Positions 15,244 to 22,028 of a stretch of 37,460 bases of DNA are shown here, piece after piece. Positions within the stretch are counted from its first letter, which is position 1; each line of letters begins with the position of its first letter. The stretch spans positions 63,776-101,235 of the forward strand of contig QQSB01000036.1 in the NCBI GenBank assembly GCA_003602515.1, given 5' to 3'. A model generated the notes under the pieces. It saw only the letters and a program-made list of their open reading frames with translations. It searched no databases and was not told the DNA's origin. Both the position numbers and the translations under genes were made by a program. This DNA comes from Candidatus Poseidoniales archaeon (GTDB lineage: Archaea; Thermoplasmatota; Poseidoniia; Poseidoniales; Thalassarchaeaceae).

Positions 15244-16413
15244 ATGAGATTAGGCGTGTTGAAGGAAATTGAGGGGGAGAATAGGGTTTCAATTGTGCCT
15301 GGGTCGTTAAAGAAATTGAAGAAAATGGGTTTTGAAGTAGTTGTGGAGGCCGGTGCAGGCACCATATCGCACAATAGTGATTCAGATTACGAGAATTCTG
15401 GCGGTATTGTATCCAGCAGGGAAGATGCCATGTCCTGTGATGTAGTCGTATCAATTTCAATTCCTGACACTTCCAATATTAAGCAGGGCCAGATTATTGC
15501 CTGCGTATCAGATCCATTCAGGAATCCGATCAATGTGAAGAAATGCGCAGATGCGGGAATTACCTTGATTAGCATGGATATGATTCCTAGACGCCTGTCA
15601 CGGGCACAGGCGATGGATGTGAATTCAAGCCAAGACAACCTCGCGGGATACAAAGCGGTATTACTAGGCGCAGCACACGTTCCAAGGGGAATCCCAATGA
15701 TGACTACCAGCGCTGGAACCGTTCGGCCTTCAAAGTTCGTCATCATGGGTTCCGGTGTTGCCGGACTACAAGCAATAGCAACCGCAAAGAGACTCGGAGC
15801 AGTTGTATTCGCATCTGATGTTCGTAAATCTGCAGCTGAGCAAATCGAATCTGTTGGAGGGCGCTTCATCGAAGTTGATGGTATGGATGACTTCGAGGAT
15901 GATTCGGGGTATGCCAAACCGCTAACTCCTGAATTTATCCAGAAAGTTAACGATACTGTATGCGAAGTTGCAAGCGATGCCGATGTAATCGTGACAACGG
16001 CCCGAATCTTCGGAAGACCTGCACCAATTACCGTTCCTAGCACTGCTATTTCGACTTTCAAACCGGGTTCAGTTGTGATAGACATGAATGCCGATGTTGG
16101 TGGAAACTGCGAGATGACAGTTCCCGGGGAAGTTGTGACAACAGAGAACGGGATTACAATTGTTGGAACCAAGAATCTGGCTGGTGAGTTGGCTTCAACA
16201 GCTAGTATGCTATTCTCGAACAATATGACGACTTTCCTGTCTACACTAGTTGATGAAAATTCTCTCAGAATCAATATGGATGACGCGATCCTTGTGGGTG
16301 CTCCAGAGGGTGACGACTTCTATGTCGCTGGCATGGGTGGGGTTCTCCTGTGTCACGAAGGAGAAATACACCCTAAGCAGACGAGACTTGCGGAGGTCGT
16401 AGCCAAATGTTGA
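15244..16413 (+). CDS. pntA: NAD(P) transhydrogenase alpha subunit 1 (NAD-binding domain I)
   Basis: 389 residues. This is the soluble NAD(H)-binding component of proton-translocating transhydrogenase, in the split form with alpha1, alpha2 and beta as separate genes. MRLGVLKEIEGENRVSIVPG is the family start, with GGTGGT at 15235-15240 as a Shine-Dalgarno site before the ATG. RAQAMDVNSSQDNLAGY contains the RQD-loop-type region, and the NAD fold GSGVAGLQAIA is at 169-179. Alanine dehydrogenase shares this fold, but the two following genes decide the call. It ends in a 7-nt overlap with the next gene. Confidence 0.96.
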   Translation: MRLGVLKEIEGENRVSIVPGSLKKLKKMGFEVVVEAGAGTISHNSDSDYENSGGIVSSREDAMSCDVVVSISIPDTSNIKQGQIIACVSDPFRNPINVKKCADAGITLISMDMIPRRLSRAQAMDVNSSQDNLAGYKAVLLGAAHVPRGIPMMTTSAGTVRPSKFVIMGSGVAGLQAIATAKRLGAVVFASDVRKSAAEQIESVGGRFIEVDGMDDFEDDSGYAKPLTPEFIQKVNDTVCEVASDADVIVTTARIFGRPAPITVPSTAISTFKPGSVVIDMNADVGGNCEMTVPGEVVTTENGITIVGTKNLAGELASTASMLFSNNMTTFLSTLVDENSLRINMDDAILVGAPEGDDFYVAGMGGVLLCHEGEIHPKQTRLAEVVAKC

Positions 16414-16724
16414 CAATGACCACACTTGTTGCCAGCATCACCGTCTTCGTATTGGCTATTTTCCTTGGTTTTGAGTTGATTAGTAAGGTCCCGCCCACAC
16501 TGCATACACCTCTAATGTCAGGAGCGAATGCAATTTCTGGAATCACAATTGTAGGAGCCCTCATACTTTCTAATGCTGAATTCAATAATGGCGATCCGGG
16601 CACTGCATCCTGGCTCGCATTCATTGCATTGATAATGGCGACAATCAATGTTGTTGGTGGTTTTATGGTTACTAACAAGATGCTTGAGATGATAGCTGGT
16701 AAGAAGCGCAGAGGTGGAAACTGA
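16407..16724 (+). CDS. pntAB: NAD(P) transhydrogenase alpha subunit 2 (membrane domain II part)
   Basis: 105 residues with three transmembrane helices, the first starting near residue 7 and the others in IVGALILSNAEF and WLAFIALIMATINVVGGFMVT. The segment VPPTLHTPLMSGANAISGI is the strongly conserved proton-channel loop of alpha2 subunits. The helix ends TNKMLEM, then a short basic tail. Its start overlaps pntA by 7 nt, and its stop overlaps the pntB start by one base (TGATG). The three products should therefore be made in linked amounts. Confidence 0.96.
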   Translation: MLTMTTLVASITVFVLAIFLGFELISKVPPTLHTPLMSGANAISGITIVGALILSNAEFNNGDPGTASWLAFIALIMATINVVGGFMVTNKMLEMIAGKKRRGGN

Positions 16725-18169
16725 TGGTGGACTCGGTTGTTTGGGATATAGGATACTTGGTTTCTGCAGCACTGTTTATACTAGGTATAAAGCGCCTATC
16801 GAGTCCTAGAACTGCTCCCCAAGGCAACATGCTCGGGGCTTATGGGATGCTCCTTGCTGTCCTCGTAACACTCGTGAAGATGTATACTGAGGAAGTGATT
16901 GGATATGAGTTGATCATAGGGGGACTAGTGATTGGATCGACGATTGGCTACGTCATGGCAACTCGAGTTGAAATGACTGAGATGCCAGAATTAGTAGCCC
17001 TATTCAATGGATTCGGGGGAGGGGCTTCGGCACTCGTAGGCTTGTCAGAGGTTCTCAGTAGGCTCCGGGATTCAAATGTCCCAGAACCCGGTGTAGAGCT
17101 ATACGCCACATGGGTTGCAATCGGGCTGTCTGGAATAGTTGGATGGGTCACATTGACTGGAAGCCTCATGGCAATGGGCAAGTTAAGAGGCGGATTCTAC
17201 ATCCCATTTTCAAAGAAGGACGACCGTGGCAGAAGGAAGTGGATTAATTTCCCAACATGGGGCCCGCCTTGGCTAAACTTTGTCAAGGGAGCCGTACTTC
17301 TAGCATGCCTTTCACTAATCGGTCTTACAATACAGGATCCGCATAACTACGACTACGTGTATGCTCTAGTCTCACTCTCTTGTTTGCTTGGCGTGCTCTT
17401 TGTGATTCCAATTGGCGGTGCAGATATGCCAGTTGTAGTCAGTCTGCTAAATTCGATGTCAGGAATAGCTGCAGCATTCACGGGTTTCGTAATCGGTAAC
17501 AATGTGCTAATCATCGCTGGATCTATGGTGGGGGCAGCGGGGCTGATTCTCACATTCATCATGTGCAAGGCGATGAATAGAACACTTACCGCTGTTCTCT
17601 TCAAGTCCTTTGGTGGCGGAGGCAGGGAATCAGTAACCCGCACAAAGGTTGGTAGCGACCCTGAAGAGGTTGCGATGGTCTGTGATGGAATTAGCAAATG
17701 CGTTATCATACCCGGTTATGGGATGGCTGTCAGCCAGGCGCAACATGCCGTGAAAGAATTTGCAGACCTGCTTGAAGCCCAGGGTGTAGAAGTATCCTAT
17801 GGTATTCACCCAGTAGCAGGAAGGATGCCCGGACACATGAACGTCCTATTGGCCGAAGCAAGCGTTCCTTATGAGCAACTAATCGAGATGGATGACATTA
17901 ACTCAGAACTCCCAGAAACCGATGTAGCACTTGTCATCGGAGCAAACGACACAGTAAACCCAGTCGCTAGGACAGGGGAAGGTCCACTGGGCGGGATGCC
18001 CATTATCGATGCCGACAAGGCCAGGGTCGTAGTGATCATCAAGCGTAGCCTTTCCGTAGGATACGCAGGTGTGGACAACGACCTATTTTTCGAAGATAAG
18101 ACCATGATGTTATTTGGTGATGGGAAGAAAATGATGAACGAACTAAATGCGGCTATCAAGGAATTCTGA
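16724..18169 (+). CDS. pntB: NAD(P) transhydrogenase beta subunit (domains II and III)
   Basis: 481 residues, the usual PntB length. The N-terminal two thirds have about nine membrane helices; the first conserved block is MLLAVLVTL and the channel region includes FNGFGGGASALVG with the beta-type GxxxG pattern. The C-terminal NADP(H) domain III carries IIPGYGMAVSQAQHAV, IHPVAGRMPGHMNVLLAEA and VIGANDTVNP, all diagnostic. The complex uses the proton gradient to reduce NADP with NADH. High conservation with bacterial versions suggests acquisition by transfer, an inference. It is the last gene of the operon. Confidence 0.98.
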   Translation: MVDSVVWDIGYLVSAALFILGIKRLSSPRTAPQGNMLGAYGMLLAVLVTLVKMYTEEVIGYELIIGGLVIGSTIGYVMATRVEMTEMPELVALFNGFGGGASALVGLSEVLSRLRDSNVPEPGVELYATWVAIGLSGIVGWVTLTGSLMAMGKLRGGFYIPFSKKDDRGRRKWINFPTWGPPWLNFVKGAVLLACLSLIGLTIQDPHNYDYVYALVSLSCLLGVLFVIPIGGADMPVVVSLLNSMSGIAAAFTGFVIGNNVLIIAGSMVGAAGLILTFIMCKAMNRTLTAVLFKSFGGGGRESVTRTKVGSDPEEVAMVCDGISKCVIIPGYGMAVSQAQHAVKEFADLLEAQGVEVSYGIHPVAGRMPGHMNVLLAEASVPYEQLIEMDDINSELPETDVALVIGANDTVNPVARTGEGPLGGMPIIDADKARVVVIIKRSLSVGYAGVDNDLFFEDKTMMLFGDGKKMMNELNAAIKEF

Positions 18170-18226: not shown

Positions 18227-19249
18227 GTGCGAGTGAGTACTAGAAGGCTATTGGTTTGCATGGCAATAGTGGCCGCGCTATCGCTCCCGGCACTGGGTAT
18301 GAGCAGTGGCCCAGGGGCATACAATTCAAACGACGAGTTGACAGTGAAGTATGGGTGCTCTTGTCACAATAATGGCGCTCCTTCTGATCGCGCCGTTGTA
18401 ATGGTCACCGGAGTCCCACTAATGTACGAACCCTCGGAAATGTATCAACTCACAATACGTGTCGCTGACTCATTAACTCTCTCGGGAGGAGAAGGCAACA
18501 CGCATGCAGGATTTTTACTCTCTTCCGACGCGATAGGTAACTTTTCTTGGTCTGAAGATCAGGAGATTCGCTATGCTGACGGACGGTCTGATGATGCCTC
18601 CCATTCTGAGACTAGTACAGATGGGGTCTGGCTAATCAGTTGGCTTGCACCAAGCGAAGATGTCGGCTCGGTGCAGTTCTGGCTCGCTGGAAACTCTGTC
18701 GATGGAGCAGGCATACCAGACGACATGGACTATTGGAATATACTCTCTTTTACAATCAACTCTCCTGGAACAATTACCACCGAAGAGAGCGGTGCTACTC
18801 TCGAGACCAGAACAATATCTGTAGGAACTTACGATTCTCTTTTCCTAATTGAGGTATCAGAAGAACAGCTGGAGAAAGAACGCCAGGATGCGTTAGCTGA
18901 TCGTGTTTTCTCACAGGGAAATCTCTTCTACTGGACAAGCCTAACTGCCCTAATAATCGGCGCTGTTCTTCAAAAAGAGATACTTGAGAGGAAATATGAT
19001 GATGGCCCTGATTTCTTGGCCAGTGAGTTAGCATACCCACAGGCATTCCGCAGATCCGTAACATCCGTAGTATCATTCTACTTGGCCATCAGCTGGGCCA
19101 ATACGGATTCTCCTTTAGTATTCCAAGGAGTCGATTTCACTGACTTCGCTTCTGGAACGGCTTTCCTCATCAGTGCATGGGCAGCATATGGCGTCTACAG
19201 GACTATTCTGGCAGCAAGGACAGAACCCAAAGTGAAGGATGTATTGTGA
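18227..19249 (+). CDS. Reeler-like (choice-of-anchor V type) secreted membrane protein with possible Tat signal
   Basis: 340 residues from GTG at 18227 (GTG at 18233 is an alternative). The N-terminus STRRLLV followed by a hydrophobic core and PALGMSSG resembles a twin-arginine signal peptide, though the motif is not perfect. The exported part begins with YGCSCHNNGAP (Cys44, Cys46, His47) and then THAGFLLSSD, DGVWLISWLAPSEDVGSV and FWLAGNSVDGAG. This order of blocks is like the bacterial Reeler-type domain that normally starts with CxxCH; here the spacing is CxCH, so a canonical c-type heme site is absent. The C-terminal third has about three membrane helices. It ends inside the tatC start (GTGA overlap), so expression is coupled. 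Confidence 0.78.
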   Translation: MRVSTRRLLVCMAIVAALSLPALGMSSGPGAYNSNDELTVKYGCSCHNNGAPSDRAVVMVTGVPLMYEPSEMYQLTIRVADSLTLSGGEGNTHAGFLLSSDAIGNFSWSEDQEIRYADGRSDDASHSETSTDGVWLISWLAPSEDVGSVQFWLAGNSVDGAGIPDDMDYWNILSFTINSPGTITTEESGATLETRTISVGTYDSLFLIEVSEEQLEKERQDALADRVFSQGNLFYWTSLTALIIGAVLQKEILERKYDDGPDFLASELAYPQAFRRSVTSVVSFYLAISWANTDSPLVFQGVDFTDFASGTAFLISAWAAYGVYRTILAARTEPKVKDVL

Positions 19250-20019
19250 GCGCAAACCAGTATCATAATCTCGGTAATTTGAATCATTCAGAACACTTCG
19301 TCGAGATTCACTTGATTGCAAGGAAATCTGCATTCTTGTTTATATTAATCTCCGTAATCTGGTCTTTTCTGTGTGACCAAGCTATCTCTATCTGGCTCGA
19401 AAAATCTCCACTTCCTGCAGGTCCAAACAATGAGAATCTAGCTATTTTCGCTCCATTCGACTGGATCCAGATACGTTGGAGCGTTGTGATGCTGCTTTCA
19501 ATTGTTACAATACTGCCTCTAATTTCCATAATGTCATACAAATTTGCAAAACCCGGCCTTTATCCCAGGGAGAGGAAATGGCTAATTGCCGTTCTGTTAC
19601 TAACTACGGCGATAGTTCCAGCTTCTATAATGCTAATTTGGGTATTTGGACTCCCAACTCTTTTCGACCTTTCAATATCAAATGGGTATCCTGACGGCGT
19701 ACTAATCAGGTATGATGCTGCTTCGATATTCTCACTCGGTTTAGGGGCTACATGGGTACTGGTGGTTTGGTCGGTAACAACGACCACACTATCGCTTTCA
19801 AGAATTTTCGGAATGATACATTCTGGTAGGACACGATTCAGGAATAGATTACTTGCAATATCTTCTGGAATCATTATCCTCACTCTTCCAGTTGAATACG
19901 ATGGATTGAAAATAGTAATCGCGCTTCTGATGGCGCTCTCTGCCGAGATGTTATCGCAATCGGCACCAGTAAAAATGGAAGTTTGGGACTCCCATACGAA
20001 TACTGAATTAACTAACTAG
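19246..20019 (+). CDS. tatC: TatC-family twin-arginine translocase subunit, divergent
   Basis: About 257 residues. The GTG at 19246 is chosen because it overlaps the upstream stop as GTGA; an earlier in-frame ATG would run deep into that gene. Six hydrophobic segments are seen. TatC marks are HFVEIHLIARK at the start (like the HLIELR motif), IFAPFDWIQIRW after the first loop, MSYKFAKPGLYPRERK in the second loop, and late FRNRLLAISSGIIILTLPV followed by a helix. TatC is the receptor for folded precursors carrying a twin-arginine signal. No tatA gene is nearby. The sequence is strongly diverged, and the usual conserved charged residues after the first loop are only partly retained. Confidence 0.83.
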   Translation: MSANQYHNLGNLNHSEHFVEIHLIARKSAFLFILISVIWSFLCDQAISIWLEKSPLPAGPNNENLAIFAPFDWIQIRWSVVMLLSIVTILPLISIMSYKFAKPGLYPRERKWLIAVLLLTTAIVPASIMLIWVFGLPTLFDLSISNGYPDGVLIRYDAASIFSLGLGATWVLVVWSVTTTTLSLSRIFGMIHSGRTRFRNRLLAISSGIIILTLPVEYDGLKIVIALLMALSAEMLSQSAPVKMEVWDSHTNTELTN

Positions 20020-20063: not shown

Positions 20064-22028
20064 ATGGGCAAACTAGGGTCGTTACGATTTTTTAGAATTG
20101 TAGCTGTATCTTTCCTGATCGTTTCTTCTGTTTTAGTTAACATATTCTCAGACTCTGTAAACGAATCGATTACCTCTACTGTAAGTGAGAGTCAAAATCA
20201 GAATGATTACGAGATGGCCGGCCTTTCAAATGAAGAGAAATGGCCGGTACTTCGAATTAGCTTTCCTGGAAAGGAATTCCCGAATTCTCTTTTGGGAGAG
20301 ATTTTTGATGGCGATCTTTCGGCTCAGAGGTATATTTCTGAAATGAGTGGGGGCGAATCACAATTGATTCCCACAATAGTCGAAGGCGTATGGGAATCAC
20401 CCTACGATGATTCCCACTGGGGAGCAGATTCTGACCTTGAGAGAGATTCAGGTAGCGGGTCCGGAGGAGTCAGAGAACTGGCAACTCAAGCAATAGTTAG
20501 TTTGCTCCAAGGACAGGATCTTTCGGTATGGGACCTGAATGGTGATTACGTCATCGACCGGATTCTGATTTTGCATTCTGGACAGCCACAAGAGGAGGGT
20601 GGTCCATCCAGTACAATTTGGAGTCACTTCTCCACGTTTCAAGACCCATTTCAGATAGGTGATTACAGATTTGAGCACTACACAATGGCCTCGGTCCATG
20701 GTGGTCTTGGAGTTACTATTCACGAGATGCTGCATCAAATGGGGGCTGTTGATCTATATGACGTACACAGCGAATCACCTACAAAGTCCTGGTTTGGGCT
20801 CGGAGACTGGGACATAATGGCTAGTGGAAATTGGATCGGCGATGGGGACATGCCTTCACTCCCTTCTTCTTCTACATTGGAGTTAATTGGTGCAATGGAT
20901 CCCATCGCCTCAGATATCCATCTAGATGGTAACTTCACCTTACAGCCAATATCCCAAGGCGGGGCTCCACTGAAGATTGGAATTGCTCCAGGTGAGTTCA
21001 TTTGGTTAACTCTGAGATCGAATATTGGTTTTGATAGGGGCCTTCCTGGCCATGGCATATTGGTTGAACAGCAAGATCTGGCATTCGGAGATTTTGAATC
21101 TAATCTCGTTAATACCGATCCAACGAAACCTTGGGTAAAGATTGTTGAAGCAGACGGGGACGATGCTTTACTTAGAGCTAGGGATTACGGCTCGTCAGGC
21201 GATACTTTCACTGCGGGGGATCGTTTTGGGCATACAGGAAATCAAATCTGGGACAACAGGGGAAGACTAGTTCCGTGGACTATTACTGTGACTTCACATA
21301 CTGATGAGTCTGCCACAATAGAGTATGATTTTGTGGGGGACGCGGATTCAACAATCACCTTTCCACGTGACCCGGTTATATTGCTTCCAGATGAGGCTGC
21401 CCATGCTGAGGTCCTCGTTGATCTCGATTGCGAGCTTGTTACGGATTTGTCCAACAAGGCTGAAGTGCGTTCACAATCAGATAACGTATACATTGTGGAG
21501 TTTCTCAACTTGTCTCAAACATCTTCTGAGGAAGGTACGATTACAGGTACAATTGGTTGCTTAGATAGGCCAATGACACACGTATCACTGAATTGGAGGA
21601 TGGTAAAACACAGATTACAGACCGAAACGTTGGAGGCAACTGTTGCCTGGAACGAGCCATCTACAGTTGAGTTGTATCCAGATGCTGTAGGAGATGGCCC
21701 CAGGGTTTACACAATTTCTGTAGACGGTCCTGCAGGAAGAGTCTCCGACTCGATAACTACTGGTACATACTATCCAGGGGACCCAATTGTCCTGGCTATT
21801 GAGCCGGTTGGATTGCTCGAACCCAGGATGATAGCCCGTGGAGAGCTCGTAATAGTTGACTCCGACAATATCGAGCAAAGAATCCCTATTGTCCTTAACT
21901 CTGAGGGAGAGCTTCCCTTCGGCCCATTAAACTGGCTCGCAATTCCTTCCAACGCCATCTCAACGGTTTTTGCTCTCCTAGCCTTCTCAATAGCCACAGG
22001 TAGTAGAAAATTGTCTGATGATGTATAG
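20064..22028 (+). CDS. M6-like secreted metalloprotease with C-terminal anchor
   Basis: 654 residues. An N-terminal hydrophobic stretch (residues 8-28) is a signal peptide or anchor. The zinc site HEMLHQMGAVDLYD is at 220-233 (His220, Glu221, His224), and a Met-turn-like segment GLGDWDIMASGNW follows near 245-257, as in the immune inhibitor A/M6 family. ILILHSGQPQEEGG and WSHFST before it also match M6 enzymes. A beta-rich C-terminal part ends in one membrane helix (about 630-645). It is likely a surface-attached extracellular protease for protein breakdown. It follows tatC by 44 bases in the same direction. Confidence 0.88.
   Translation: MGKLGSLRFFRIVAVSFLIVSSVLVNIFSDSVNESITSTVSESQNQNDYEMAGLSNEEKWPVLRISFPGKEFPNSLLGEIFDGDLSAQRYISEMSGGESQLIPTIVEGVWESPYDDSHWGADSDLERDSGSGSGGVRELATQAIVSLLQGQDLSVWDLNGDYVIDRILILHSGQPQEEGGPSSTIWSHFSTFQDPFQIGDYRFEHYTMASVHGGLGVTIHEMLHQMGAVDLYDVHSESPTKSWFGLGDWDIMASGNWIGDGDMPSLPSSSTLELIGAMDPIASDIHLDGNFTLQPISQGGAPLKIGIAPGEFIWLTLRSNIGFDRGLPGHGILVEQQDLAFGDFESNLVNTDPTKPWVKIVEADGDDALLRARDYGSSGDTFTAGDRFGHTGNQIWDNRGRLVPWTITVTSHTDESATIEYDFVGDADSTITFPRDPVILLPDEAAHAEVLVDLDCELVTDLSNKAEVRSQSDNVYIVEFLNLSQTSSEEGTITGTIGCLDRPMTHVSLNWRMVKHRLQTETLEATVAWNEPSTVELYPDAVGDGPRVYTISVDGPAGRVSDSITTGTYYPGDPIVLAIEPVGLLEPRMIARGELVIVDSDNIEQRIPIVLNSEGELPFGPLNWLAIPSNAISTVFALLAFSIATGSRKLSDDV

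Follow-up and report, generated by a model that had tools for sequence, protein, structure and literature searches.

TatC does several jobs within one protein, and it has been hard to assign these jobs to individual protomers of the complex. In haloarchaea TatCt is a tandem TatC fusion, and in Bacillus subtilis the phoD-tatAd-tatCd operon ties a cargo to its TatC. In the E. coli core complex, TatBC units form a trimer. Cryo-EM shows that both arginines of a bound signal contact one and the same TatC protomer, at E15/F94 and at E103, and that the consensus phenylalanine of the signal packs on F94 and H12; the helix of TatB or TatA docks between protomers, against TM5 and the TM5-6 loop of one TatC and against TM1 of its neighbor (PMC13323110). 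The F94A/E103A substitutions block signal binding, a step in which E170 is not involved, while with E170A TatA still assembles and transport stops (PMC10092561). Bacillus has two tatC paralogues, in TatAdCd and TatAyCy, each TatC being described as directing its own substrates (PMC3827258).

Here we describe a TatC paralogue encoded beside a Reeler-fold protein (gene A) in a Marine Group II archaeon, and a second TatC encoded elsewhere in the same genome. Signal binding and core function apparently lie on separate genes across a class of abundant marine archaea, the Poseidoniia. We regard this arrangement as a variation on the Tat system already known, and a literature search, limited to open papers, returned no description of such a split TatC pair. 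The reading that we favor, with a probability of about 60%, is a Tat system in which signal recognition and core function are divided between the two TatC paralogues, with gene A as a partner. If both TatC proteins cooperate, each step becomes testable one gene at a time.

Gene order and the Reeler-fold protein

The window, by which we mean the whole 37,460-nucleotide stretch that was analyzed, belongs to contig C30 of a 1.36 Mb assembly that is 76% complete and that its closest named relatives place in Candidatus Thalassarchaeaceae. Gene A starts with a GTG codon, its protein begins MRVSTRRLLV, and its TGA stop (19247-19249) overlaps the GTG start of tatC (19246) in the sequence GTGA, as the earlier note had described. 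The observation that this tatC has no tatA beside it also holds: profile searches of the contigs found one TatA in this genome, of the ordinary type, on contig C57. Coordinates of the gene pair, its motifs and its neighbors are given in Table 1.

Table 1. Positions within the window of gene A, tatC, their sequence features and adjacent genes.
Feature	Position	Strand	Remarks	Evidence
Gene A, Reeler-fold (choice-of-anchor V), 340 aa	18227..19249	+	N-terminal signal sequence; C-terminal three-helix membrane tail	NF041895, AF2 model, orthologues
Gene A N-terminal signal sequence MRVSTRRLLVCMAIVAALSLPALG	18227..18298	+	RR lineage-specific here; apparently Sec-like elsewhere	Orthologue alignment
GCSCH motif, gene A residues 43-47	18353..18367	+	GCxCH invariant throughout the order; may bind a metal or heme	
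Gene A predicted helices, residues 212-330	18860..19216	+	Invariant QxExxER..GP..L...LA.P and YRT	AF2 secondary structure, invariant columns
Receptor-type TatC paralogue, 257 aa	19246..20019	+	GTG start	PF00902 above cut-off; tree
TatC H17..E20, equivalent to E. coli TatC H12 and E15	19294..19305	+	RR-signal contacts	Alignment; contacts PMC13323110
TatC F100AKPGLYPRE109, equivalent to E. coli F94...E103	19543..19572	+	Twin-arginine binding loop, intact	Alignment; PMC13323110
TatC TM4	19726..19788	+	Conserved F-E/Q-x-P (E170, P172) lost	Alignment
tatC stop	20017..20019	+	In 36/83 relatives the frame runs on into a putative HdrA-like cytosolic Cys4 domain; absent here	
M6-type metalloprotease, downstream	20064..22028	+	Usually the next gene in relatives; third of the A-tatC set	PF05547; synteny
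pnt transhydrogenase genes, upstream	15244..18169	+	Syntenic in most, not all, relatives	PF05222/PF01262/PF02233

The gene pair is conserved throughout the order. Of 60 Poseidoniales relatives, 56 yielded a gene A orthologue, and these 56 are also the ones in which the divergent TatC was found; in every one of them tatC lies directly downstream of gene A on the same strand; the other four relatives match gene A through paralogues only. Since the same genomes carry both genes, adjoining every time, their adjacency is not due to chance, and the two apparently form one operon. They commonly sit in a larger mdh-pnt-A-tatC-M6 block that is syntenic in most relatives, and the adjacency might be a mere part of this block with no functional link, which would remove gene A from the proposed system and leave the TatC split in place. 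We think this unlikely, given that at two loci (L143 and L154) pnt is not upstream and yet A, tatC and M6 remain together, that at a third (L170) A and tatC are kept where M6 is not directly next, and that each of the 83 distinct loci has A and tatC overlapping or almost abutting, with the TatC frame opening between -128 and +39 bases relative to the end of gene A.

Gene A has no Pfam match, and it passes the NCBIfam choice-of-anchor V family NF041895 (63.5 bits against a cut-off of 42). Its AlphaFold model has a mean pLDDT of 60, with most of the beta sheet at 73-87, and the eight best PDB matches (Foldseek) are all to the Reeler domain of F-spondin, at E values of 2e-6 to 2e-5. Because that domain fills the top eight structure matches, the earlier designation of gene A as Reeler-like stands. 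It resembles the F-spondin and reelin Reeler domains in fold, and differs from them by the GCxCH motif and by a conserved three-helix membrane tail. The CxCH motif noticed previously is present in the window as C-S-C-H, and all 83 gene A orthologues that cover the site have GC[STN]CH; the motif is a possible metal or heme ligand.

Complementary residue losses in two TatC types

The window TatC scores 49.4 bits against PF00902 (cut-off 25.1) and falls far below the cut-off of the canonical NCBIfam equivalog TIGR00945 (37.2 vs 132.7 bits), for which reason the term divergent, used in the earlier note, is apt. A count of tatC copies, which that note had proposed, turned up a second, higher-scoring tatC on contig C67 of the same genome.

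The two types were compared at two sets of sites in E. coli numbering: a receptor set (H12, E/D15, F94, L/M99 and E103), taken from the E. coli cryo-EM structure independently of the present data, and a core set (E/Q170, P172, P209, D211 and E227), partly picked from sites conserved in the second copy. All 83 window-type rows have four or five of the five receptor residues and at most one of the five core residues (5/5 and 0/5 in the window protein itself), and all 30 second-type rows have at most one receptor residue and all five core residues; no row of either type mixes the sets beyond one residue. By site, the window type (n=83) has H12 in 82, E/D15 in 81, P85 in 83, F94 in 82, L99 in 81 (M in 2) and E103 in 83, and its alignment with E. 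coli TatC reveals the loss of E170, P172, P209, D211 and E227. The second type keeps Q170, P172, P209, P210, D211, S214 and E227 in 30/30 rows, and none of the 30 has a recognizable RR-binding loop or the TM1 residues. The near-invariant sites that match E. coli TatC are largely different in the two types (12, 71, 85, 94, 99, 103 and 193 in the window type; 71, 121, 131, 137, 157, 169, 172, 193, 209, 210, 211, 214, 217, 221 and 227 in the second). In these alignments the losses of the two types are complementary, and the two copies therefore probably work together. The division is not total, as T208 is retained as T or S in both.

Single-copy TatC proteins of other Thermoplasmatota served as a control, and the 33 sequences keep both surfaces (F94 in 32, and E103, E/Q170 and P172 in all 33). 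The receptor and TM4 sites are thus constrained together in the normal protein; D211 and E227, which this outgroup does not generally share, weigh less. The earlier note had considered that the genome might hold a standard second tatC alongside a window copy lacking the receptor residues; the situation is inverted, with the second copy lacking these residues and the window copy keeping them. A degenerate window TatC without E15 was also considered and discarded, as HFVE falls in register when the alignment is computed.

In E. coli TatABC one TatC does both jobs, together with TatB, whereas in these archaea the recognition residues H12, E15, F94, L99 and E103 are kept in the window TatC, the TM4 and TM5/6 residues in the second TatC, and one TatA-type protein was found. 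Haloarchaeal TatCt likewise has two TatC units, in a fused chain there and in separate genes here. Two tatC genes per genome are also a feature of Bacillus, a precedent for two parallel Tat routes in which each TatC would take different cargo (PMC3827258). Such an arrangement is improbable here: only one TatA was found (in a genome 76% complete), the second TatC lacks a recognizable signal-binding surface in every row, the losses are complementary rather than independent, and neither archaeal copy carries all of the conserved residues.

Two tatC copies are present in nearly every well-covered Poseidoniales genome, and the single-contig genome G037 has exactly one TatC of each type. In the sister order of the same class, genome G062 has both types (L213 and L214) and G127 has the core type (L215); other genomes, of genus g21, have the receptor type. 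The tree separates the window type plus the same-class receptor type from the rest with support of 99/95, and the second type plus the same-class core type with 99/97, apart from the single-copy TatC proteins (row OUT_L201, on a broken long branch, is to be disregarded). The simplest reading is that one tatC duplication occurred before the orders of the Poseidoniia split. Core-type profile matches were found in 294 of 340 genomes of the class and in 35 of the 38 of good quality, leaving three high-quality genomes with no core-type match, and four g21 genomes (G138, G197, G203 and G311, 86-92% complete) yield the receptor type alone when the Pfam threshold is applied. These four reflect either loss of the core type or assembly gaps, and in view of them and of the three high-quality genomes the pair may not be obligate in every lineage.

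At three sister-order loci (L213, L218 and L219) the receptor-type tatC is not preceded by gene A and is followed by an overlapping membrane-protein-like gene containing WGSDSGEYL.

Twin-arginine signals and a candidate cargo

The earlier note had proposed that gene A and its TatC form a dedicated substrate-translocase pair, on the strength of a twin-arginine-like signal (STRRLLV) in gene A, and had named poor conservation of the RR pair as evidence against this. The adjacency of the two genes in all relatives would suit the proposal, as would an RR at the same position in four close relatives, the only orthologues to share it. By alignment, however, only 12 of the 83 gene A orthologues have an RR pair in the signal n-region, and only 3 show a Tat-like motif. 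Gene A signals read SVSRAF or SIGRSL in sister species of the same genus and MLSRNTRLL or INSKALVV in other groups, and their h-regions, with ALG or ALA at the end, resemble those of Sec signals. Gene A thus fails to show the conserved twin-arginine signal of a Tat substrate, and was ruled out as Tat cargo. As the window TatC also has neither core residues nor its own tatA, and a different protein has an invariant RR (see below), we regard a dedicated pair as very improbable. Gene A is probably a Sec-type membrane-anchored Reeler protein and a conserved partner, not a cargo, beside the window TatC; it is the gene order that points to a partner role.

A better candidate for cargo is encoded away from the window. 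A Rieske-type protein on contig C45 has a twin-arginine signal that is conserved in 24/24 genomes, as [ND]RRxF in the 22/22 Poseidoniales read and as TRRxFLK in two sister-order genomes. The label Rieske-type refers to its CxHLCC and CxCHSS boxes and its cytochrome b neighbor; the protein has no match to the Pfam Rieske family PF00355, and the proteins of this genome that do match Pfam Rieske models belong to types that have no RR signal. A scan for Tat cargo with Pfam TAT_signal and RRxFLK at the DNA level gave one clear signal, in G062. Tat export of Rieske proteins is established (for example PMC3623810), and the pattern of conservation makes the Rieske-type protein a consistent, if predicted, Tat cargo. 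Since its RR is selected in genomes whose second TatC lacks any known RR-binding surface, the window-type TatC is the obvious reader.

The operon that encodes this protein (L173:4197-10001, contig C45 of genome G000) comprises a Reeler protein with GCTCH, a DUF7318-like protein, the Rieske-type protein with its RR signal, cytochrome b, and a large protein (931 aa) that has CCG and 4Fe-4S domains. It reads as a cytochrome b complex of unusual make-up, in which iron-sulfur parts are Hdr-like. Its Reeler protein is a shorter GCxCH paralogue of gene A.

We propose that a single duplication in the Poseidoniia ancestor gave rise to the two TatC paralogues. The window TatC kept the twin-arginine surface (TM1 and the TM2-TM3 loop) and lost the conserved TM4 and TM5/6 residues, and the contig C67 TatC lost the signal-binding surface and kept the remainder. 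Both would then most likely join the single TatA that was found in a mixed TatC complex, in which the window TatC would catch the RR signal and the other TatC would supply the core functions, namely the TM5/6 docking region for the TatA helix and the TM4 residue that a later step of transport requires. The Rieske-type iron-sulfur protein would be a cargo, and gene A would act as a partner beside the window TatC. We infer this joint assembly, the division of labor and the role of gene A from the residue losses, the gene order and the signals described above. A strict 1:1 mix of the TatC proteins would misfit a trimer of the E. coli TatBC kind unless the stoichiometry differs. Under this scheme these archaea would have a Tat cargo in the Rieske-type protein, and gene A would be a new candidate for a membrane protein associated with Tat.

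A cysteine-rich extension of TatC

In 36 of the 83 relatives the window-type TatC extends past TM6 by ~100-180 residues with an invariant CxC...C...GC pattern (for example at L053:7803-8177, L146, L149 and L162). This Cys4 extension is present in 20 of 22 Poseidoniaceae, one of the remaining two being cut by a contig end, and is patchy within the Thalassarchaeaceae. The window TatC does not have it, and searches gave no convincing match elsewhere in this genome, nor any match to it in Pfam, NCBIfam or PDB sequences. The five best PDB fold matches of its AlphaFold model (pLDDT 75) are all HdrA chains, with probabilities of 0.97-0.99 and weak E values of about 0.02. The best of these is to the HdrA N-terminal domain (PDB 5odi, 7bkb, 5odc) and is weak (E 0.018, TM 0.56); the extension differs from HdrA in having no sequence match to it and no HdrA flavin domain. 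A reasonable guess from the model is that the extension may be a cytosolic iron-sulfur or redox domain carried on the signal-reading TatC.

Two further readings take in the extension. The window TatC may have left the Tat system and now scaffold the Reeler protein in the membrane, along with the Cys4 domain where that is present, perhaps serving electron transfer or envelope redox chemistry. The lost core residues, the strict pairing with gene A, the HdrA-like cytosolic domain in these 36 relatives and the GCxCH Reeler paralogue in the Rieske/cytochrome b operon would all be compatible with such a change. Nevertheless, the near-invariant residues of this otherwise fast-changing TatC are the contacts of the RR signal, which is hard to explain without signal binding, and a cargo with RR exists that the other TatC cannot bind in the known way; on balance we doubt this reading. 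The second goes beyond the divided Tat system that we favor, and supposes that the Poseidoniia Tat core is an obligate mixed-TatC machine, in which one TatC does nothing but read the signal and the other is confined to core function. Gene A would then be an additional subunit of the core, and the HdrA-like Cys4 domain would sense iron-sulfur or redox state and gate export of the cofactor-loaded Rieske protein. We offer this fuller version tentatively, as a rather unlikely one.

Archaeal paralogues of gene A carry CxCH in the same GCxCH form. The motif is common to the Reeler/choice-of-anchor V proteins observed in these archaea (window positions 18353-18367, and loci L173 and L229-L239), some of which are at least 670 aa long.
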